Virus record (IMG/VR): IMGVR_UViG_3300033145_002663
Location: 28,470-92,469 of that record
Origin: a virus
DNA: 64,000 nucleotides
Reading direction: 5' to 3' (one strand)
Below are positions 15,537 through 37,942 of this stretch, in pieces. Each line of letters starts with the position of its first letter. Within the stretch, counting starts at the first letter, position 1. The notes beneath the pieces are model-generated. The model did not search any database and had not been told where the DNA came from. It worked only from the letters and a program-made list of their open reading frames with translations. Made by a program: the position numbers and the translations under genes.

Positions 15537-15748
15537 TGGCAACGATAATTTTTGAAAACTGGCCCAACACATGCTGGATGGATAAAGAGTGGGTCAAAGA
15601 TAGGCTTGAAACGGAACAAAAGAAAAAGATTATACAGATAGAATCTCTTTTTTCTAAGGCAAGCATGAAAAGAAAAGCTCAAATCATGGGAATTTCTGTT
15701 GGATATTATTATCAATTAAGAAGCAAGTATAAAATTACCACCCCATAG
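15536..15748 (+). CDS. Small HTH-like protein (70 aa)
   Basis: A 70-residue protein. Residues 40-62 (ASMKRKAQIMGISVGYYYQL) look like a helix-turn-helix. Its ATG shares one base with the previous stop (TAATG). It ends 14 bases inside the convergent recombinase gene and closes the rightward early operon; no terminator hairpin is visible between the two. Confidence 0.5.
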   Translation: MATIIFENWPNTCWMDKEWVKDRLETEQKKKIIQIESLFSKASMKRKAQIMGISVGYYYQLRSKYKITTP

Positions 15749-16613
15749 CCGCATCCACCCGGCGCTGAAGCATGTTCGGTGTCGGGTGAATGTAGTTATC
15801 CTCGATTGTTTTCGGTGTGTCCCCCAGCAGGAACGCAATGTCCATGATACTCATACCGCCTTCATAGTGCAGCCATGTGGCCACGTAATGCCTAAAGGTG
15901 TGGGGGCCCCGACCATCGGCACCGTTCTTTAGTCCCAGGTCAATCAGCATGTCATTAATAATCTTCTGGACCTGCTTGGTGGAGGGGAATATTCTATCCT
16001 GCCATCCCATATCCAGCATTGCGCGTTCCTTATATATTAATAATATGCGCGCGGTGTCTTTTGAGAAGAACGCCGGCCGGGGTTCGGTCTTGGAGTCAGA
16101 CAGAAATACGGTTCTGTTCTCAAGATCCACGTCCCTGGACATGATGCGGCTGACCTCCCGGACCCTGGCACCGGTATCGATCAGCAGGCACACGATCGCC
16201 TGGTTCCGGACAGAGTTTCTTGAATCCGGGAACGAGTATTCTCTGCACATCTCGACCTCAATTTCAGTGAACCAGCGGCTCACAGCCTTGAGCTGGGCTT
16301 CCTTGCGCTCGGATGCAGGAATGCGGTAGGTGTATTCTATGGGGGTGCCGTTCCATTTGAAGAACATTTTAGCAATGGTGAGGTATTGCTGGATGGTGGG
16401 TCCACCGCAGTTCAAACTTTCAAGATAGGCCGCATACCCTGGCATGTATTCCTGGAAGTTATTTAAGTCTACGTTATCCATTCCTAACCAATTGCAATAC
16501 CCTTGAAGCCTTTGCAGACCATTTCTGTATAGATTGATTGTGTTCGGCCTCAATGAAGATATTGAGGATAAATATTGAGCTATAACCATGTTTATATCTG
16601 CTTTGTGTGCCAT
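15735..16613 (-). CDS. Second tyrosine recombinase
   Basis: A 292-residue recombinase unlike the integrase at 476. A SAM-like core-binding domain (residues about 5-100) precedes the catalytic domain. Catalytic positions visible are Arg150 (TGARVRE), Lys175 (SDSKTEP), His238 and Arg241 (PHTFRHY) and Tyr274 (DNYIH); the expected His before the Tyr is Asp265 (LLGDTPKT). The length is that of Xer-like or short integron/plasmid recombinases. It is the first-discovered alternative for dimer resolution of a plasmid-like prophage, or DNA inversion; an integrase role cannot be excluded. Its ATG overlaps the stop of the zinc-ribbon gene upstream (TAATG). Confidence 0.85.
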   Translation of the reverse strand: MAHKADINMVIAQYLSSISSLRPNTINLYRNGLQRLQGYCNWLGMDNVDLNNFQEYMPGYAAYLESLNCGGPTIQQYLTIAKMFFKWNGTPIEYTYRIPASERKEAQLKAVSRWFTEIEVEMCREYSFPDSRNSVRNQAIVCLLIDTGARVREVSRIMSRDVDLENRTVFLSDSKTEPRPAFFSKDTARILLIYKERAMLDMGWQDRIFPSTKQVQKIINDMLIDLGLKNGADGRGPHTFRHYVATWLHYEGGMSIMDIAFLLGDTPKTIEDNYIHPTPNMLQRRVDAAMGW

Positions 16614-27985: not shown

Positions 27986-29050
27986 CTACTGCAAATACTG
28001 CCCGTGCTCCGGGAACCACTGCGTGGTGTACGCTTTGTGCTTCATGAGCATGGGGTCTTTGCGGACGATGTCTTTCATTAATTTCATGGACCACTCTTTT
28101 TCCACCCGCATAGAATATGTTACGATGTTCTTAAAGTTGTCCTGATCGGCCATGGATGCCAGCGCGCAGGTCAGCGAGTACATTATGTCAGGCTTACCTG
28201 TGGGAACACCGGCGGTCTTGGGATGCGCCAGGATATTGTCCATGTCCGGCAGCTCGTTATAAACTTTCTCGAATGTCATGAACTCACCGGTGGGCCCCTT
28301 GCCGACCGTGCCGCTTAACAGCTCGAACTTTAAATCCTGCGGCGGGTGCTGCTTTAAAATGTCGGATGTAAATTCCCATGTCCTAGGCGAGGCGAACGCT
28401 TTTTCGTTTTTCTTTTCCGGGTTCTGAGAATCGTTCATCGGGTCAAAGTCCAACAGCAGCTGCGGAAAATTATGAATGAACGCAATCACCATTGGATAAA
28501 TATCAGCGCGGTACGCCCATGTAATCCAATCTTCCTGGCTTACATCGTAGTTAATATGAATGAGCCGGTTCGCCATGGGGGTGCTCATCCGGTGGGTGAA
28601 CGCTCTGTCAATTTCCCGGTTGCCGGCGGCTACGATCCACCAGCCAGGCGGCAGCTCGTACTCCCCGATTTTTCGATCAAGGAATAACTGAAGCAGGGCG
28701 TTCTGTGTGAGCGGCGGTGCTGAGGGCAGCTCATCAAAAAAGATGATGCCCTTGCCTTCCGTCGGCAGGAATGCCGGCGGACACCAGTGCGCTTTCTGGT
28801 CGCCGTTGATTGATGGCAACCCACGAATATCAACAGGATCGAGCAGCAATGCCCGAATATCCCTGAAGCCGTACAGTGCCTTTGCCTTTTGTTTGATTAA
28901 TTTGCAATCACCGCCCTCGGTGGCGTTAAGCCAGTCCACCAGTTGTTGGATGATACATGACTTTCCAACTCCCGGCGGGCCCCATAAAATGCAGGGCAGG
29001 TCGGCGTTTTTAAGAATCTTTAATGATTCAAATACTTGGGTTGGCCTCAT
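27986..29050 (-). CDS. MoxR-like AAA+ ATPase
   Basis: A 354-residue AAA+ ATPase: Walker A GPPGVGKS (24-31), Walker B GIIFFDEL (101-108), then AAGN as sensor 1 and an arginine-containing HRMSTPMANR block. The pattern is that of the MoxR branch, chaperone-like ATPases that act with VWA proteins on target complexes. The VWA partner lies at 24793-25929. The ATG at 29050 has AAAGGAGGAAAGCA upstream; nine extra residues in the longer frame are unlikely to be used. Confidence 0.85.
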   Translation of the reverse strand: MRPTQVFESLKILKNADLPCILWGPPGVGKSCIIQQLVDWLNATEGGDCKLIKQKAKALYGFRDIRALLLDPVDIRGLPSINGDQKAHWCPPAFLPTEGKGIIFFDELPSAPPLTQNALLQLFLDRKIGEYELPPGWWIVAAGNREIDRAFTHRMSTPMANRLIHINYDVSQEDWITWAYRADIYPMVIAFIHNFPQLLLDFDPMNDSQNPEKKNEKAFASPRTWEFTSDILKQHPPQDLKFELLSGTVGKGPTGEFMTFEKVYNELPDMDNILAHPKTAGVPTGKPDIMYSLTCALASMADQDNFKNIVTYSMRVEKEWSMKLMKDIVRKDPMLMKHKAYTTQWFPEHGQYLQ

Positions 29051-29211: not shown

Positions 29212-29976
29212 TTAAATTGGTATTGGATTAACCTTCATGGTCTCTAAATTTACAAAGACACCATGATATTCGATTCGGGTTTCTCGAATTAGTTTCCAGA
29301 GTATGTCCATGCCGAGCATAGCCAGCGTGGAATTGATAAACAGATCCTGCCTGCCTAAAGCCTCGGCAAGGCTGCATGACGGCCCCTGATCTTCCTCGGT
29401 TGCCCGTTCAAACTCGTCATAGAACAATTCCAGCACGTGAGGGAGCTTTTGGGATTGACCATCGGGTTGCTTTATTTCGTCCCATGAGCCAAGCACGGCC
29501 TGACCGGTCTTCTGGGTGTTGCCAAAATCCATCCAGTACATTCCTTCGTTATACTCCTGCCCCCCTCGAACATCCTCGTCCCAAAGTTCCGCCAATGCGA
29601 TGCGTGCTTCAACAGTATCGACACAGGATATAATTATATTGGTGGGATCAATAACTTCGACGGTATCCCTGCAGTACGGGATGGCATTAGCTTCCCATGC
29701 CAGTCCGAAGAACCGGTTTACCCTTGTAATCAGAGCGACGGCTTTGTTCTGCTCGATTTCGGCGGGTGAGAACAATTGTCGCCCGAAGTTGGACTCGCTC
29801 ACGATGTCCGGATCGTATGCCTGAACATAGAACCCAGGGTGCCCCAGGCCCTGCAGGGCGAAGTCCATGCGGGCCAGGCAGGTTAGCACCTGCGATCCGG
29901 TACCGCCGCACCCTACCAGCGCGACGGTGATCGGGTGTGTGGGGTCTAATAAGTATTTGTCAGCGTAGTGAGTCAT
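29212..29976 (-). CDS. PRTRC system ThiF-family (E1-like) adenylyltransferase
   Basis: A 254-residue E1-like enzyme: nucleotide loop GCGGTGS (22-28), the DPDIVSESNFGRQLF block (55-69) with the conserved Asn-x-x-Arg-Gln, Asp120 in SCVDT, and a Cys201 in PSCSLAEAL at the site of the conserved C-terminal Cys of MoeB/ThiF proteins. The Zn-binding Cys pairs of MoeB are absent. The family adenylates the C-terminus of a ubiquitin-like partner; the best partner here is protein C at 32762. It overlaps protein B by four bases. This is a diagnostic member of the ParB-related, ThiF-related cassette. Confidence 0.87.
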   Translation of the reverse strand: MTHYADKYLLDPTHPITVALVGCGGTGSQVLTCLARMDFALQGLGHPGFYVQAYDPDIVSESNFGRQLFSPAEIEQNKAVALITRVNRFFGLAWEANAIPYCRDTVEVIDPTNIIISCVDTVEARIALAELWDEDVRGGQEYNEGMYWMDFGNTQKTGQAVLGSWDEIKQPDGQSQKLPHVLELFYDEFERATEEDQGPSCSLAEALGRQDLFINSTLAMLGMDILWKLIRETRIEYHGVFVNLETMKVNPIPI

Positions 29977-30656
29977 AATAAATCCCCCAGTACCTTTGCT
30001 TTTTTCTTGGAAACCATATGTTTTTTCATGGTTGTTTTAAGGGGGAACCGGCCTCCTTTAGTTATAAGTTTCGTCCAAATAGCATTCAGGTTCTTTCTTC
30101 CCTTGCAGGGATTGGCTACAAAATGAGAAAATTTGGAGTTGAAGAAAGCCGATTCCCAGCCACGGATAATCTGATCAATGGTTTTTCCTTGTATTCTTTT
30201 AGCACTCCCCATACACATATTCCCGTCCTCGTACCTGTTGTGAAACGGGGCATAGTACAGCTCGGTTTCGAGGGTAGGGCGGTCTTTGCCGACGTAGGCA
30301 AACACGGACAGGGTGCTTCCCGTAACCATAAAGATCAAACCGGGGCACCATGCCAGGCCGTCAGGAATGTTCAAGGCGTCCGAAAAATATAGCTGGCGAA
30401 TCATCGGCGGGTAATACCAGAGGGTTTTATGAACATCATGTGTTAATAAATTTACAGGGAACAACCCGGATTTATCCGGCTGATTTTTTTGCTGAAACAG
30501 GGTGATCAAACCTTTCAGGTTTTTCCATGTCAGAGGCTTCCCGCCCAGCAGGGTGCCGTCCCGTGTAATATCATGCAGTTCCGCATAGTAATCTGTATTG
30601 GTGTCCGCCTGATATATCATCAGGGATTTTCTTAGGTGAAAGTTAGAGTAATCCAT
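29973..30656 (-). CDS. PRTRC system protein B (E2-like signature)
   Basis: A 227-residue protein that matches PRTRC protein B. Near residues 135-150 it has APFHNRYEDGNMCMGSA. The arrangement H-N-x-Y-x-x-G-x-x-C-[LM] parallels the active-site segment of E2 conjugating enzymes (HPN-x-Y-x-x-G-x-[VI]-C-L), so Cys148 would be the thioester residue. That comparison is mine, from the sequence. The ATG at 30656 overlaps the stop of the upstream gene (TGATG). Direct coupling to the ThiF gene supports an E1-E2 pair. Confidence 0.82.
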   Translation of the reverse strand: MDYSNFHLRKSLMIYQADTNTDYYAELHDITRDGTLLGGKPLTWKNLKGLITLFQQKNQPDKSGLFPVNLLTHDVHKTLWYYPPMIRQLYFSDALNIPDGLAWCPGLIFMVTGSTLSVFAYVGKDRPTLETELYYAPFHNRYEDGNMCMGSAKRIQGKTIDQIIRGWESAFFNSKFSHFVANPCKGRKNLNAIWTKLITKGGRFPLKTTMKKHMVSKKKAKVLGDLL

Positions 30657-31588
30657 CAAGCCTCCATTAATTTTTGAGAAACACCTGTCCCCATTTCAAA
30701 AAATTTCATAAGGTTATAAGGCCATTGAGGAACTTTCAGCCTGTTAATTTCCAGGCAATCCTTGCCGGTTAAGTAAAAGTTGTGCACAAACGGAATCATG
30801 CCGACACTATTGCAATATTCTTCAGAATCTCTTAAAACTTCCTCGCCCATATAATCATCCAATGACCATACGAATCGCATATAATTATATGGGTTCGCCC
30901 CATCAATGCCTCGTTCAAATTCATAGTCGAGAAAATCATTATAGTCCAAACCGCTTCTGATTAATTCATACCCCTTAAAGCACCAGCTAAAAATCTCTAC
31001 TTCAAGATCGTTTTCAGGGTTGAATTGAGCGAGCATTTGCGCAAAATCATCTATGGAAAAATTCAGCCGATTAATACAATTTTCATAGAAACCGGGTTCA
31101 CCTTTCATGTATTTATGAATCATGTCTGAATAATACGAAATTAAACCTTCATCCGGATCGTCCTCATATTTTTCTTCCCCGATGCGCTCATCAAAATAAT
31201 CAAGCATACGCTCATCCATATCCATGTGCGGCATATTGCAATGCTTGTTTAACAAGCTCATCATGGATAGAATTAAATTATAAATCTTACGATTTTGATT
31301 CTTTAGTTTTGGCAGGTATTCCAGGGAGAGCATATAAATATCATACTCACAGACATTAGAGTATTTATGGTAAACTCGAATCAAATAGTTTGGTGACTCG
31401 ATTATTTCCCATTGAAAATCATTCGGGATGAGTCCGTGCAGTTTTTCAAGGATCGTGCCCAGCACTTTCCAGGTTGGTGTGTTTTTATCTAAGTCCGGTA
31501 TGGAAATTTCATAGTTTTTTAAGATGTTTCGTATTTCCCTTATGGCTTGAAGTTGTTTTCTTTCTGAATCAAACATTCCGTAGTGCAA
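30656..31588 (-). CDS. Large PRTRC-associated protein (possibly protein F)
   Basis: A 306-310-residue helical, acidic protein, coupled to protein B. The start is uncertain: TTG at 31588 with GGAGG 11 bases upstream, or ATG at 31576 without a site. The longer frame to 31879 is rejected because a different small gene occupies that space. The middle (residues 140-230) is rich in Asp/Glu and aromatic residues (DYFDERIGEEKYEDDPDEG). PRTRC cassettes often carry a large protein here, but I cannot confirm the family. Confidence 0.6.
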   Translation of the reverse strand: MHYGMFDSERKQLQAIREIRNILKNYEISIPDLDKNTPTWKVLGTILEKLHGLIPNDFQWEIIESPNYLIRVYHKYSNVCEYDIYMLSLEYLPKLKNQNRKIYNLILSMMSLLNKHCNMPHMDMDERMLDYFDERIGEEKYEDDPDEGLISYYSDMIHKYMKGEPGFYENCINRLNFSIDDFAQMLAQFNPENDLEVEIFSWCFKGYELIRSGLDYNDFLDYEFERGIDGANPYNYMRFVWSLDDYMGEEVLRDSEEYCNSVGMIPFVHNFYLTGKDCLEINRLKVPQWPYNLMKFFEMGTGVSQKLMEA

Positions 31589-31614
31589 TTTCGCACACAC
31601 CTCCAGCTCGTGCT

Positions 31615-31791
31615 TTACGGCAGGCACACCATGCAGGGCGGGGCAGGTAATCGCTCGGGCCGCTCTATGCCGGTCCGGTATGCCCTGTCGGAGTCCACCA
31701 GCAGGCGCCCGACACCGTTGTGCAGCATTTTGAGCTGTTTCTCCTTTTTTTTCCTGCATTTTTTCACCTTCAAATATTCTTCGAGTGTCAT
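31615..31791 (-). CDS. Small basic protein (58 aa)
   Basis: A 58-residue protein beginning MTLEEYLKVKKC, with a Lys-rich N-terminus and a CMVCLP end. Its ATG overlaps the stop of the zinc-finger gene upstream (ATGA), the usual coupling in this operon. It is read in another frame from the longer open frame that crosses here. Function unknown. Confidence 0.5.
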   Translation of the reverse strand: MTLEEYLKVKKCRKKKEKQLKMLHNGVGRLLVDSDRAYRTGIERPERLPAPPCMVCLP

Positions 31792-32084
31792 TGTCTGCTA
31801 CTCCAATCGGCATACTCATCAACGTCATCGTTCTGTTTGGTTTTAAAGCAGTACTCCGATAAAAAATGGAGGCCTTCACCCACCGGGCGACCGCACCCGC
31901 AGGAGCAGAGCTTTATTTTCTTGGGATCCTTTTTTTCGTCCTTGTGCGCTCTGTAATAATCCCTGCATCTTTTACGGTGCATATCTTTGTTGCACTCCGG
32001 ACAATATTTTCGACGGGCAGCAAAGTGGTTTGCCACCTTAAATATCTTGCCGCACTTGGGGTTTTGGCATATTACGGTGAGCAT
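31788..32084 (-). CDS. Zinc-finger protein (98 aa)
   Basis: A 98-residue basic protein with CQNPKCGKIF near residues 6-15, YCPECNKDMH near 28-37, and a LCSCGCGRP block near 60-68 followed by a YC; the Cys spacing fits two zinc ribbons. The ATG at 32084 has CAGGAGTTATC upstream. Nucleic-acid binding is likely. Confidence 0.6.
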   Translation of the reverse strand: MLTVICQNPKCGKIFKVANHFAARRKYCPECNKDMHRKRCRDYYRAHKDEKKDPKKIKLCSCGCGRPVGEGLHFLSEYCFKTKQNDDVDEYADWSSRQ

Positions 32085-32263
32085 GATAACTCCTGGCACT
32101 CATATTTCTTGAGCATTTTTATGGCGTTCCGGTAATTTTTAAACCTTAAGAAGTGACGCAGTTTTTTTAGCTGAGCCTGGGGAAAGCCAAAATAGCAATA
32201 CTGACGCGATTCCCAGGCCACCTCCAGCTCGCCGTATGAGTTGTAATTAATGATTTCTATCAT
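32072..32263 (-). CDS. Hypothetical protein (63 aa)
   Basis: A 63-residue basic protein with a beta-hairpin start (ELEVAWESRQYCYFGFP) and a basic helix (LKKLRHFLRFKNYRNAIKML), a pattern reminiscent of small KTSC-like or DNA-binding proteins. It overlaps both neighbours. Function unknown. Confidence 0.5.
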   Translation of the reverse strand: MIEIINYNSYGELEVAWESRQYCYFGFPQAQLKKLRHFLRFKNYRNAIKMLKKYECQELSCSP

Positions 32264-32405
32264 CTTTCACCACCTCATGAATTTTCCATGCGATATCCAT
32301 GAATTCAGCAAGGCGTTCACCCTGCTGATCCATGGATAAAAATTTAAAGGGCGGTATGTCTTTGATTTGATTATAGAGCTTTTGCTCCATCTCTTGCCGG
32401 GTCAT
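32247..32405 (-). CDS. Small helical protein (52 aa)
   Basis: A 52-residue charged helical protein (MTRQEMEQKLYNQIKD...). The ATG is very close to its GGAG, so an ATG five codons later is an alternative start. It overlaps the genes on both sides. Support is continuity with the operon only. Confidence 0.4.
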   Translation of the reverse strand: MTRQEMEQKLYNQIKDIPPFKFLSMDQQGERLAEFMDIAWKIHEVVKDDRNH

Positions 32406-32577
32406 TCTCCTTTATTACCTCCTTAATAATATTAGCTAATGCTACTATAGCAGCACCCTGATTCCCAAAGTATTCAGCTACAGTTTTTCCATTGAAGGGT
32501 TGACCATCAAAGTGCTTTGCATCATTTGATGTATTAGTAATTATTAAATCTAAAACCCTAATCTTCCTCTCGTTCAT
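32371..32577 (-). CDS. Hypothetical protein (68 aa)
   Basis: A 68-residue protein with a strand (RVLDLIITNTSND) and a helical C-terminus. Its ATG overlaps the previous stop by four bases (ATGA). No family is recognised; it is part of the PRTRC operon by position. Confidence 0.5.
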   Translation of the reverse strand: MNERKIRVLDLIITNTSNDAKHFDGQPFNGKTVAEYFGNQGAAIVALANIIKEVIKENDPARDGAKAL

Positions 32578-32759
32578 TCAGTCACACCTCCTCCATACCA
32601 GGCATGGACCGTGCCGGTTTCTTCGTCCACCAGAAGATCCAATGCCACGAAATTAAAGTGGCGAAACATTGCCAGTGCTTCGCCACTTAAACCTAATTTT
32701 TCGCCCATATCTTCCATGTACTCCCGATCCAGTTCAGCTTGAACGGATACTTTTCTCAT
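32574..32759 (-). CDS. Hypothetical protein (61 aa)
   Basis: A 61-residue acidic protein with a helical N-terminal half and a strand pair near the end (FVALDLLVDEETGTVHAWY). It starts two bases after PRTRC protein C ends. Function unknown. Confidence 0.5.
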   Translation of the reverse strand: MRKVSVQAELDREYMEDMGEKLGLSGEALAMFRHFNFVALDLLVDEETGTVHAWYGGGVTE

Positions 32760-32761
32760 AC

Positions 32762-32971
32762 CTATCCTTTCATCCCCACGGATGTGGAAAACTTGTACTC
32801 GGCTACACCGTCCTTGATTTCCGGGCCGGTAACCGTGGCAGTGGTTAGTTCGGGGTAGGTGTTGCTGTAAAACTGCAACACGTCGTGCGGGGACATCTCA
32901 GGGGCGGGATCGGTGAGCGGTTCGCCCTTATGAAGAAACACCCGTTTTATATTCGTTACGTCTAATGCCAT
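32762..32971 (-). CDS. PRTRC system protein C (candidate ubiquitin-like modifier)
   Basis: A 69-residue protein recognised as PRTRC protein C: IKRVFLHKGEPLTDPAPEMS at residues 8-27, an FYSNTYPELTTATVTGPEI core, and a C-terminal SVGMKG. The predicted order of strands and a central helix with a glycine end is what a small beta-grasp modifier would show, so it is a candidate substrate for the ThiF enzyme. That is inference. The ATG at 32971 is preferred over a GTG at 32980 for its spacing from GGGGG. Confidence 0.85.
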   Translation of the reverse strand: MALDVTNIKRVFLHKGEPLTDPAPEMSPHDVLQFYSNTYPELTTATVTGPEIKDGVAEYKFSTSVGMKG

Positions 32972-32986
32972 TTGAGCCACCCCCTT

Positions 32987-33364
32987 TTATGTAAACAAAC
33001 CTGGTTGTTGACTGACAGCACCAGGTGTCTTAACCGGCGCGGCCTTCTTTTTCACGGTCTTGTCGGTCTTTTTCACCACGGCTCGCTTTTGTTTCTCGAC
33101 CAGATCGTTATACTCGTCTATGGAACTCATTAAACCATGGGTCGATCGGCCGGCTCTTGTCAGTTCATTAATGAACCCCTCGTCCAGTTCTTTGGGAGTT
33201 CCGGATATAACCAGCGGTTTAACCTCAATCTTATCCGCTTTCTCATCCGTCTGTTTGGGCAGCACGCTCACGGCGATTTTCCCATGAACAGGCTTGCTGA
33301 TAACCATTGTTATTGTTAACTTACCCGATTCTATGACCGGGTAAATTCGTTCAAAAAACTCCAT
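32987..33364 (-). CDS. PRTRC system protein E
   Basis: A 125-residue protein matching PRTRC protein E: an FERIYPVIESGKLTITMVIS start (strand-rich), a KPLVISGTPKELDEGFI block near residues 48-64 and a Lys-rich tail ending PGLFT. The tail resembles a clamp-binding (QxxLF) peptide, QQPGLFT, and a sliding clamp gene lies just upstream; that link is speculative. AAAGGAGGAAACGC precedes the ATG. It is the first gene after the promoter at 33399-33426. Confidence 0.78.
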   Translation of the reverse strand: MEFFERIYPVIESGKLTITMVISKPVHGKIAVSVLPKQTDEKADKIEVKPLVISGTPKELDEGFINELTRAGRSTHGLMSSIDEYNDLVEKQKRAVVKKTDKTVKKKAAPVKTPGAVSQQPGLFT

Positions 33365-33472: not shown

Positions 33473-34777
33473 CTAACTGTTTATTCCCATGATAGCGGCT
33501 TTTAAATTTCCGCCTTCGAAAAACACGGGTTTCATCGAATCATCGGACAGCTTCAGGGTAACTTTTTTACCCACGTGCTTCAGGGCGTCCGCGACATAGC
33601 CCGTATTCAACCGGACGGTCATTTCGGGATCAACCTTGCCTTTGAGAAACGGTACGTCAAACCTGCGGTATTCTCCCTTGTCGTCATTGGCAGCCTCGAC
33701 GTTCATCACGCCGTTGAGTGTGAAATCCGCGACCTCGGAGATCAGCCCGACCTGTTTTACGACGTCTTTGAACACGTCGTTGTCAATCTCGATGCTGTGA
33801 ACGGTTTTCGTACCGTTCATAAATCCCATGTAATCCGGGAAATTAACGTCTTCATCCTTGGTCAACACGGTCAGCTTGCCGTAGGTAAATTGAGCCCGGC
33901 TTCCGTTCTTGTCGATCTTCATGGTAACATCTTTGTCCTTGGCAACTTTCGCCAAAGTTCCCAGAGCACCCGCCGGCAGCGTGATGTTTTGCTTCAGGTT
34001 GATCTGATGCTTCAGCATGTGCAAACGGTTACCGTTGGTGGACACCAGATTTTTCTCCTTGGCATCGAACATAACAACCGTTTGATGCGGCGAAGCGTCA
34101 TCTTTGTAATTGCAGGCATCCGTCAAGCTTCTCAGGTCATCACCCTTTATGGTGGCAACCTGAGTCCCGGTAAATTCTCGAGCATCAGGGAACTCTTTGA
34201 TGTCGGTCAGCGGGATGCGCTGAAAATGCTCCCCGATTGCCAGGGCCGTTGCGTTGACACCCTCGGTCAAAAAGTCCGATTTTTGCTCGAACTCCTCAAC
34301 ATGAAGATCAATAACATCCCCGGAATTCTCGGAATTCACGATCTTAAGCAGGTGGTCCGGGTCTACCAGGAACCGTTCGTCAACCTCGGTCTCGGGCGGC
34401 GGCAGTTTCTCCTCGGTCTGGGCGGCGGCTTCGCTGGCATTAAATATCGATTCAACCATATCAGCTTTCTTGGCCTTCTCGCCGAGATCGATGCCGGCGT
34501 ACTCGCACAGATCGACAAGCTGCCCGACCTTCAATGATTTCAGGTCTGTGGTAAGGTCTTCGTCCGGATGCACCACGGCGGGTTTTTCGCCAACGATTTT
34601 CTGCTTGTAATCAGTCAGCGAAATCGCTACCTCACCCCTGGTCTGCATATCCGTTGCGATGATCTTCTGGCTGGGGCCATCAATCAAAACTTTTCCCAGC
34701 TCCGGATAGGACTTACCATTTTTAAACCCTTTGACCATTTTCAGGCCCTCTACAAGGTCTTTCTTTGCTACTTTCAT
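33473..34777 (-). CDS. dnaN-like: DnaN-like sliding clamp with SAP-like insertion
   Basis: A 434-residue protein with the three-domain plan of the bacterial beta clamp: domain 1 strands at the start (LGKVLIDGPSQKIIATDMQT), a middle domain with LVSTNGNRLHMLKHQI, VNFPDY near residue 300, and a C-terminal domain ending with a NLKAAIMGIN strand like the IMP motif of DnaN. Domain 1 is interrupted at about residues 75-140 by an insertion that includes a SAP-like DNA-binding motif (79-112, LKVGQLVDLCEYAGIDLG). It should load around DNA and hold polymerase or partners. AAAGGAGGTGCAT precedes the ATG at 34777. Confidence 0.8.
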   Translation of the reverse strand: MKVAKKDLVEGLKMVKGFKNGKSYPELGKVLIDGPSQKIIATDMQTRGEVAISLTDYKQKIVGEKPAVVHPDEDLTTDLKSLKVGQLVDLCEYAGIDLGEKAKKADMVESIFNASEAAAQTEEKLPPPETEVDERFLVDPDHLLKIVNSENSGDVIDLHVEEFEQKSDFLTEGVNATALAIGEHFQRIPLTDIKEFPDAREFTGTQVATIKGDDLRSLTDACNYKDDASPHQTVVMFDAKEKNLVSTNGNRLHMLKHQINLKQNITLPAGALGTLAKVAKDKDVTMKIDKNGSRAQFTYGKLTVLTKDEDVNFPDYMGFMNGTKTVHSIEIDNDVFKDVVKQVGLISEVADFTLNGVMNVEAANDDKGEYRRFDVPFLKGKVDPEMTVRLNTGYVADALKHVGKKVTLKLSDDSMKPVFFEGGNLKAAIMGINS

Positions 34778-34799
34778 ATGCACCTCCTTTGAAATAAAT

Positions 34800-34871
34800 T
34801 TACCGAACCATACAGCCCGGCCGGATCTTATGAATCCGTGAGAACCGTCGAATTTTTTCAACAGCTCTCAT
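34800..34871 (-). CDS. Possible 23-aa basic peptide
   Basis: A short frame (MRAVEKIRRFSRIHK...) beginning five bases after the RadC-like stop and ending before the clamp's ribosome site. It has no clear ribosome site of its own. Listed as a low-confidence coupled frame. Confidence 0.25.
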   Translation of the reverse strand: MRAVEKIRRFSRIHKIRPGCMVR

Positions 34872-34875
34872 GGAG

Positions 34876-35229
34876 TCACACTCGGGTTAAATCTTTATAC
34901 TTCGTTTTTAATCGAGCTATCGTTCCTCGATCTGCCATACTGTAAAACGCCCTATCGCCGACGATCAGGTGTTCGTGTATTGTGACACCAACCGATTGCA
35001 GGGCGATCATCAGTTGAAAGGTGATAGAAAGATCTTCAGGCGACGGATCGGAACTTCCTGAAGGATGGTTGTGGCAAAAAATTACCGCTGCGGCTTGTTC
35101 CTGGGCAGTCAAAGGTTTCATAATATTATATAACTCCTCAGAGTTATTTACCTTTTGCCCTTTAATATTTTCCTTAACCATTGTTGCAAATTTACCGGAT
35201 ATCAAATCCTGATAGAACTTACAATTCAT
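34876..35229 (-). CDS. RadC-like JAB-domain protein with internal deletion
   Basis: A 117-residue protein. The C-terminal part has the JAMM metal site of RadC/JAB proteins (FCHNHPSGSSDPSPEDLSIT, then GVTIHEHLIVGDRAFYSM). Upstream of it, MKPLTAQEQ joins directly to AAAVIF: about 45 residues that normally lie between these blocks, including strands of the JAB core and the conserved Glu, are missing in frame. So it is probably not a normal peptidase. PRTRC cassettes usually carry a JAB-type protein A, so it may be a degenerate deubiquitinase-like partner. AAAAGGAGGTGGTAGC precedes the ATG at 35229. Confidence 0.7.
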   Translation of the reverse strand: MNCKFYQDLISGKFATMVKENIKGQKVNNSEELYNIMKPLTAQEQAAAVIFCHNHPSGSSDPSPEDLSITFQLMIALQSVGVTIHEHLIVGDRAFYSMADRGTIARLKTKYKDLTRV

Positions 35230-35249
35230 GCTACCACCTCCTTTTTCGC

Positions 35250-35278
35250 TTGACATTATCAATCAAAAATATTAGATT
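35250..35278 (+). promoter_or_regulatory. Rightward promoter with very short leader
   Basis: TTGACA (35250-35255) and TAGATT (35273-35278) are 17 bases apart. The downstream ATG is at 35286, seven bases after the -10, so the transcript would start at or beside the codon. It diverges from the RadC-like gene. No 14-bp operator is present. Confidence 0.6.
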
Positions 35279-37000: not shown

Positions 37001-37942
37001 TTATACCACGGCTTCTTTTTTCTGAACTCGAAATTCATTGAGGGTTTCGAGTAAATTGCTTGCGATTTTCGCCATCTCTTTTGCCGTTCTTTCAATCTCC
37101 GGCAATTTCTGCTTGTTGCAGAGGATGAGCATTTTCGACTCGCCATTGGTAAATGGCGACTGTGAAAATTTCTCCATCTGATTCTTGATCTGACCAAATA
37201 ACACCTTTGCAGCCTTGCGAGTTTTCTCGTCTGCTCCGTCTTTAATCTCCGCCCACAAACTCATCTGGTTATACTCGGCTAAATAGGCATCAACTTTTTT
37301 CAACATCACATCAGCGGTTCTGCCGTTTTTCGCCCATGAATAAGCCTTCTCGAATTGACTCGGCTTAAGAGAAGCGATTTTCCTTGCCACAGGTTTCGGC
37401 AGTCGGCCTTGATCCCACTCTCTTTTCATGAGTGTCGGCAGTTGCAGAATAGGGAGATCCGCCTCGATCATAGCTACGGATTTTCCAAAAGCCTTCGCAA
37501 CTTTTTCCATCGGAAGCTCATGCTCATTCAAAGCTCTGTCAATGGCTTCCAAGGTTTCCAGCGGATCCATGTTTTTCCTGACCAGGTTATCCATGATTTG
37601 ATTCAGAAAAACATCGGCCTGAGTCATGGGTTTTTCGTAGACCCTCGCCAAGATGTAAGTTTTTCCATCTTCGATCTTGAAACCATGACGGGGTTGACCA
37701 TCCCAAAATTCCTTAATAAACATTGAAACAGCAGTCAGCCGACATTCTCCATTCATCAGCATTTGCCATCCCGGAGTCTTGGGGTGCGGAAAAACATCAA
37801 TAGCGTTTTTCATGCCTTCATTCGCTATGGAAACCGCAAGTTCGCCCTTGATGTAAGACTGGGGCTTGTTTTTTCTTGGCTGATTTGGGTCAGCCTCGAT
37901 GTAATCGACATTGACATATTCATACTTGTAATCTTCTTGCAT
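37001..37942 (-). CDS. parB-like: ParB/Spo0J-family protein
   Basis: A 313-residue protein. The N-terminal ParB/Srx domain includes YIEADPNQPRKN (about 14-25) and a NGECRLTA box (about 68-75), the GExRxxA motif that binds CTP in ParB proteins. A helix-turn-helix domain follows (ELPMEKVAKAFGKSVAMIEA, about 155-175), then a helical C-terminus. It is a plausible PRTRC ParB or a partition CTPase for a plasmid-like prophage. No ParA ATPase gene is visible in the window. GGGAGGG precedes the ATG; the terminator at 36930-36966 closes the unit. Confidence 0.82.
   Translation of the reverse strand: MQEDYKYEYVNVDYIEADPNQPRKNKPQSYIKGELAVSIANEGMKNAIDVFPHPKTPGWQMLMNGECRLTAVSMFIKEFWDGQPRHGFKIEDGKTYILARVYEKPMTQADVFLNQIMDNLVRKNMDPLETLEAIDRALNEHELPMEKVAKAFGKSVAMIEADLPILQLPTLMKREWDQGRLPKPVARKIASLKPSQFEKAYSWAKNGRTADVMLKKVDAYLAEYNQMSLWAEIKDGADEKTRKAAKVLFGQIKNQMEKFSQSPFTNGESKMLILCNKQKLPEIERTAKEMAKIASNLLETLNEFRVQKKEAVV

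Follow-up and report, generated by a model that had tools for sequence, protein, structure and literature searches.

The stretch of DNA analysed here, a window of 64,000 nucleotides (positions 28,470 to 92,469) out of the 92,469-base IMG/VR virus record IMGVR_UViG_3300033145_002663, almost certainly carries a PRTRC operon (for ParB-related, ThiF-related cassette) that lacks the JAB protein A. The best explanation of this locus, which we put forward tentatively, is a ubiquitin-like protein (Ubl) cascade that would be tethered to the sliding clamp of DNA replication by PRTRC protein E. PRTRC was named in the TIGRFAM era as a set without an assigned function, and it has counted as a predicted bacterial ubiquitin system from 2006 onwards, when an E1/Ubl/E2-like reading was proposed for the gene set (Iyer et al. 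2006, PMC1779556, operon type 6d). Both the gene set and its ubiquitin-like interpretation are already known (PMC1779556; NCBIfam PRTRC). In our literature search no functional study of PRTRC was found, nor, in a search thin on subscription journals, a paper linking PRTRC to clamps. As far as we have checked, the wide carriage by phages, the JAB-less form with a ready-made protein C, the rule on protein C tails, the clamp slot, and the protein E motif are new.

All genes of the locus lie on the minus strand and are transcribed in the order ParB-like gene, RadC-like half-gene, DnaN-like clamp, E, C, five small open reading frames (ORFs), F, B, and ThiF. The E-C gap measures 6 bases, and the F-B and B-ThiF frames each overlap by 4 bases. 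By position in the window, the features are as follows.

29212 to 29976, minus strand: PRTRC ThiF, E1-like adenylating enzyme, 254 amino acids (TIGR03736, 266 bits, cut-off 145).
29973 to 30659, minus strand: PRTRC protein B, E2-like candidate (Prok-E2_D), likely ATG at 30656 (PF14460, 116 bits, cut-off 25; TIGR03737, 121.4 bits, just below its cut-off of 131.45).
30656 to about 31576, minus strand: PRTRC F-slot protein, about 306 amino acids from an inferred ATG, the open frame reaching 31879 (iterated hidden Markov model).
31788 to 32759, minus strand: five small overlapping ORFs between C and F, of 61, 68, 52, 63, and 103 amino acids (ORF list).
32762 to 32971, minus strand: PRTRC protein C, ubiquitin-like, 69 amino acids, ending GMKG (ORF 32762 to 32980, likely ATG at 32971; PF14454 Prok_Ub, 86 bits; TIGR03738, 84.9 bits, cut-off 45.95).
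32987 to 33364, minus strand: PRTRC protein E, C-terminus ...SQQPGLFT (PF19556, 63 bits; TIGR03741, 63 bits, cut-off 37.95).
33473 to 34861, minus strand: DnaN-like beta sliding clamp (DNA polymerase processivity factor), 109 bp upstream of E (PHROG 947, 3e-29; TIGR00663, 3e-13).
34876 to 35262, minus strand: RadC-like gene with half a JAB domain only (PF04002, positions 60 to 120 of 121).
37001 to 37942, minus strand: ParB-like partition protein, upstream of the operon (PF17762, 4e-8; PRTRC ParB model TIGR03734, 16 bits, cut-off 279).

ThiF, C, and E scored above the NCBIfam cut-offs and B above that of Pfam Prok-E2_D. These results uphold the PRTRC identity proposed in a first-pass annotation made from the sequence alone, as well as the place and strand that it gave for ThiF, B, C, and E. 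Its ORFs and residues were likewise sound, but it had overlooked protein F and the beta-clamp gene. The order E-C-F-B-ThiF is common to a Parabacteroides plasmid, a Deinococcus plasmid, and plasmids of Pseudomonas, Cupriavidus, Hydrogenophaga, and Xanthomonas, so that gene order holds across Bacteroidota, Deinococcus, and Proteobacteria; the Burkholderia phage BgVeeders33, a sewage isolate, has the same order with A added. Between the window operon and its relatives the full order is kept at 30-55% identity. Compared with the set defined by NCBIfam (TIGR03734-TIGR03742), the window shares ThiF, B, C, E, the gene order, and carriage by a mobile element, but it lacks protein A and a PRTRC-type ParB beside E, has a sliding clamp in the slot upstream of E, and is phage-borne.

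The ThiF protein is clearly E1-like, as judged from its sequence. Its motif residues (GxGGxG loop, N63, R66-Q67, K78, D120, and S200-C201-S202) were invariant in 14 diverse homologues, and the SCS cysteine motif was present in 198 of 202 ThiF proteins. When the ThiF profile was compared with PDB, the E1s UBA6 and NEDD8 E1 ranked first and Cap2 was also among the best solved relatives; the profile was closer to ubiquitin-type E1s than to ThiF/MoeB. With hhalign, ThiF aligned to the E1 part of bacterial E2-E1 proteins (97%, E 7e-11). The E1 signatures read in the first-pass annotation are confirmed by the family match, the invariant residues, and the PDB relatives.

Protein C ends in Met-Lys-Gly, and its terminal G69 was invariant in 70 homologues, which confirms the glycine C-terminus first noted for this 69-residue protein. 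Among 14 distant members this last glycine was the sole invariant position, and 185 of 187 C proteins ended in KG or LG, one further row being a parsing artefact. The sole full-length copy without a terminal glycine (L019:7972-8187) ends GTKA instead of GTKG and is either a natural dead copy or a sequencing error. An AlphaFold model of C showed a beta-beta-alpha-beta-beta order with a loose, flexible tail (predicted local distance difference test, pLDDT, 82.3). Searches of PDB with the profiles of C and B gave nothing useful.

In protein B, Asn140 and Cys148 form the candidate active site and His178 is nearly invariant. N140, C148, and G150 were invariant in 61 aligned sequences, so the conservation on which the proposed catalytic role of Cys148 depended was indeed found, and the motif N-x(5-7)-C-x-G was present in all 197 B proteins. 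The spacing of 8 from N140 to C148 in the window equals the Asn-Cys spacing of the HPN...C element in eukaryotic E2s. The AlphaFold model of B (mean pLDDT 87.5) comprises a helix, a four-stranded meander, the Cys loop, and helices, an order of secondary structure that is compatible with an E2 core.

Protein A, a JAB protein with a JAB-N domain, was absent from the window, where a search with its profile gave no match. The first-pass annotation had pointed to a JAB-like gene upstream, but this gene is related to RadC, and its match to PF04002 covers no more than the second half of that domain. We rejected it as the cognate PRTRC JAB, since it belongs to a different family, has only half the domain, and is not matched by the A profile. 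It keeps only the HxH...D half of the JAB domain and may represent an internal deletion or a short variant. Protein A is optional in PRTRC, as it was missing from 138 of 192 tabulated loci; JAB was also absent from the loci L005, L006, L007, and L017 and from Bacteroidota loci. Many other relatives have protein A or a JAB-ThiF fusion. One natural fusion of protein A to ThiF (L191:9329-10753) supports A as a member of the cascade.

The distribution of A showed a clean pattern with respect to the end of C: a tail of at least 5 amino acids beyond Lys-Gly occurred only together with protein A. Such tails (5-100 amino acids) were found in 32 A-positive loci, while C had no tail in the 138 A-less loci, in one of which it ends in Ala instead of Gly. 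Nine apparent tails in A-less loci proved to be parsing artefacts, except for the terminal Ala of L019. This pattern is as expected if A is the maturation protease of C; A may also deconjugate. The stronger statement that a tail after KG is equivalent to the presence of JAB was rejected because A also occurs where C is tailless: 17 loci with A, most of them alphaproteobacterial, had no tail, and five had one of 1-4 amino acids. The rule that a tail implies A holds. On the ThiF tree the C tail and JAB each changed about four times, which is too few for a phylogenetically independent test. In Burkholderia phage and prophage contigs (L075-L096), C carries behind a common GTKG one of several unrelated tails of 57-100 amino acids (DPFVDVRTQ..., TDxATRDI..., NxALPxxxYTxKLSTSADGRTY..., ATEELDTPQKIS...). 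Close relatives differ only past the predicted JAB cut, which makes these tails a polymorphic and possibly released cargo.

The link to replication comes from the gene upstream of E. In PRTRC loci picked by ThiF alone, we found 36 full-length beta-clamp genes, all on the strand of ThiF. Of these, 26 lay directly upstream of E on the same strand, ending -10 to 109 bp before it. Among clamps less than 60% identical to one another, 22 of 30 occupied this slot (binomial P about 1e-22 for an assumed placement chance of 1 in 20). The clamps are diverse, with a median pairwise identity of 19%; Pfam clamp domains were nevertheless matched in 10 of 10 tested, and the trait changed about 14 times on the ThiF tree. 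A reverse scan from loci chosen by their clamp retrieved PRTRC in 12 of 84, and in the 11 of these with E, this gene begins -10 to 19 bp past the clamp. Two Aeromonas plasmids have the order ParB-clamp-E-slot gene-C. On an Aeromonas caviae plasmid (L209), the clamp, F, and ThiF look frameshifted or truncated compared with the intact sister plasmid L211, and C has no KTNG end. Unlike the other clamps of the set, that of the window seems to contain a SAP-like insert, about 50 amino acids long (residues about 100-145), before its recognised domains.

Protein E consists of a conserved N-terminal domain followed by variable tails. The loose motif [SDTGPN][LM][FW] was found in the tails of 58 of 87 distinct E proteins, against 5.7 after shuffling (maximum 12; 300 shuffles), and the strict form Qxx[LM][FW] in 19 of the 87, against 1.3 (maximum 7). 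Examples are QPGLF followed by a final T in the window, QNSLF in L018, a terminal QTSLF in L024, and a terminal EPASLW in alphaproteobacteria. For clamp binding in bacteria, the published consensus is QL(S/D)LF, most often located C-terminally (PMC9690074, PMC4549789). The loose motif was not enriched at the ends of F, ParB, or random ORFs, and unrelated disordered tails did not show it to the degree seen in E. It was also enriched by shuffling at the ends of ThiF and A; since the strict Q form was not, we take these cases to be conserved folded segments. The E motif is present whether or not a clamp gene adjoins, as expected if E can use the clamp of the host. A reading of the acidic end of E as a tail like that of single-stranded DNA-binding protein is less likely, since the motif mostly lies inside the chain, with G, D, or A after it.

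We propose the following scheme for the window operon. ThiF would adenylate the C-terminal glycine of C using ATP and take up C as a thioester, most likely on Cys201, from which it would be passed to Cys148 of B. The QPGLF-type motif at the C-terminus of E would hold this machinery on a sliding clamp, either the phage's own, encoded next to it, or that of the host if none is encoded. The final acceptor of C would be the clamp or a replisome protein bound to it, and the fast-diverging F would most likely act as the target-selection (specificity) factor. As translated, C already ends in Lys-Gly and would need no maturation protease, and because protein A is absent there would be no cognate deconjugase, so that the mark would be one-way. 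We consider it fairly probable that the PRTRC operon conjugates C to proteins, and possible that the clamp or clamp-bound proteins are involved. The most specific version, in which a phage or plasmid Ubl conjugation acts on the sliding clamp itself (own or host's), recruited by a clamp-binding E, as a prokaryotic counterpart of PCNA ubiquitination, seems to us somewhat unlikely.

Several observations weigh against a clamp-tethered cascade. PRTRC was absent from 72 of the 84 loci chosen by clamp, which represent one tested kind of phage clamp; in the stretches that were read, a clamp was missing from about three quarters of the PRTRC loci of viruses and from the chromosomal elements of Bacteroidota. 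The window clamp is itself divergent (19% identity to the nearest), and its N-terminal domain was not recognised by Pfam. The E motif is short and clamp binding is putative, and the substrate of the cascade is so far only conjectural. As to the cascade, a Foldseek search of PDB with the model of B returned no E2 and no match below E 0.001, and hhalign of the B profile against six bacterial E2-E1 proteins, a small template set, gave no alignment to the E2 domain (probability 0.3%). B is thus an E2 candidate on the basis of Pfam, the 2006 analysis, and the active-site pattern, its UBC fold being unconfirmed by Foldseek and hhalign. Similarly, the best Foldseek matches of C included the ubiquitin-like (UBL) domains of FAF1 and hPLIC2 and PB1, all weak (template modelling score about 0.5) and none significant, which leaves the beta-grasp anticipated for C a putative fold. 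Of the working conjugation cascade suggested in the first-pass annotation, the PRTRC identity, the E1 signatures, Cys148, and the glycine stand, and conjugation remains the most likely biochemistry; the E2 resemblance of B holds for its Asn/Cys pattern, and an E2 fold is putative.

A real Ubl cascade need not be tied to the clamp. It could instead modify proteins of the host or of competitor phages in defence, anti-defence, or exclusion, like Bil and the E1-E2 of the cyclic-oligonucleotide-based anti-phage signalling system (CBASS), in which case the clamp would neighbour PRTRC since both act early, at the time of replication. In favour, some operons that conjugate a Ubl are known to serve in defence (CBASS, PMC10097602; Bil, reviewed in PMC11354881), PRTRC is patchily carried by mobile elements, and many of its loci have no clamp gene nearby. 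However, ThiF was the sole PRTRC gene to match a PADLOC defence model, and did so via the shared E1 fold; moreover, the clamp adjoins E rather than merely lying in the same region, and E has its clamp-like motif with or without an adjacent clamp gene. We regard this alternative as doubtful. The suggestion that the operon modifies host proteins as a defence escape found no specific support, the genomic evidence pointing instead to the replication sliding clamp. Improbable in our judgement is a role in DNA maintenance with ParB as the partner, in which PRTRC would modify or regulate the partition complex, as the name of the cassette would fit. In 30 loci, the majority on proteobacterial plasmids or phages, PRTRC ParB fills the slot immediately before E, and a ParB-like gene lies 3.6 kb upstream in the window; this gene, however, is not PRTRC ParB by its model score and is separated from E by RadC and the clamp, and most Bacteroidota and phage loci have no ParB beside E.

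Two further alternatives dispense with conjugation or with function. If C were a sulfur carrier like ThiS or MoaD, or a scaffold, and B a cysteine protein other than an E2, the failure of the B model and profile to match E2s would be explained, and classical ThiF proteins do act in sulfur transfer. Yet the operon has no recurring gene for sulfur transfer or biosynthesis, and the universal N-x(5-7)-C-x-G motif of B, the affinity of ThiF to ubiquitin-type E1s, and the JAB protein A or JAB-ThiF fusion of many relatives all argue against this possibility, which we hold distinctly improbable. That the operon is a selfish or decaying passenger with no role for the window phage would agree with its patchy distribution and transfer between unrelated elements, with the extra small ORFs between C and F, and with the RadC half-gene upstream. 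It is very improbable given that all key residues are intact, the F-B and B-ThiF frames overlap, and full gene order is kept despite the divergence from relatives.

The window operon resembles known systems in part. The window shares with the operons of Iyer type 6d a Ubl with a C-terminal Gly, an E1-like protein, an E2-like protein with a downstream His, and an alpha-helical protein, but the operon groups of that paper have an adjacent or fused JAB, whereas the window has none and encodes C in its final form (PMC1779556). The Bil operon (BilABCD) likewise combines Ubl, E2, and E1, and its JAB processes the Ubl precursor (PMC11354881), which parallels the link between A and C tails in PRTRC; unlike Bil, the window has no second Ubl domain and no JAB, its E1 is short and stands alone, and E and F have no Bil counterpart. 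The E1-like adenylation domain of Cap2 in type II CBASS (Cap2/Cap3) is related to the window ThiF, but in Cap2 the E2 and E1 are fused and a separate Ubl is not required, and the window has no CD-NTase. The proposal that a Ubl cascade is brought to a sliding clamp would parallel the ubiquitination and SUMOylation of eukaryotic PCNA by analogy only; homology is claimed solely for the E1 and beta-grasp folds, and the window system is known from genes.

With a clamp gene in the slot upstream of E and a clamp-like motif in E itself, PRTRC gains, as far as we found, its first specific and cheaply testable target. If the proposal is true, clamp modification by a ubiquitin-like protein would occur in bacteria and their viruses besides eukaryotes, and might serve to exchange polymerases, to shield the phage replisome, or to displace that of the host. 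The window phage would be a good model: it is compact, brings its own clamp and a C that needs no processing, and lacks a deconjugase that could remove the mark.

PRTRC is not confined to plasmids. Searches by tblastn matched ThiF in 372 of 72,556 plasmids, a count that includes some non-PRTRC ThiF, and the cassette was found in at least 100 IMG/VR contigs and, above cut-off, in 10 of 296 Bacteroidota species genomes. Carriage by phages is real and broad, since 31 of 50 PRTRC-bearing virus contigs had a match to TerL or portal, the two families tried. Viral contigs yielded nothing when scanned with a single protein, and Xanthomonas and Pseudomonas ThiF pairs used as queries likewise found nothing.

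The remaining genes between C and B are less conserved. Protein F (tested over 30656-31540) had no Pfam or NCBIfam match, including none to the NCBIfam F model, but an iterated hidden Markov model showed it to be related to the protein in the F slot at 122 other PRTRC loci, mainly of the Bacteroidota type. It diverges fast, with only 2 columns past the start reaching 85% identity. The five small ORFs had no tblastn match in other PRTRC loci and are specific to the window phage; tiny and overlapping, they are candidate anti-host small proteins.

The presence of a terminase large subunit, an S49 head maturation protease, a major capsid protein (capsid protein E), and two integrases in the window identifies the source contig as a genuine tailed phage, which is probably temperate. 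Both integrases, at 476-1834 and 15735-16613 of the window, are of the tyrosine type and lie on this one phage contig.

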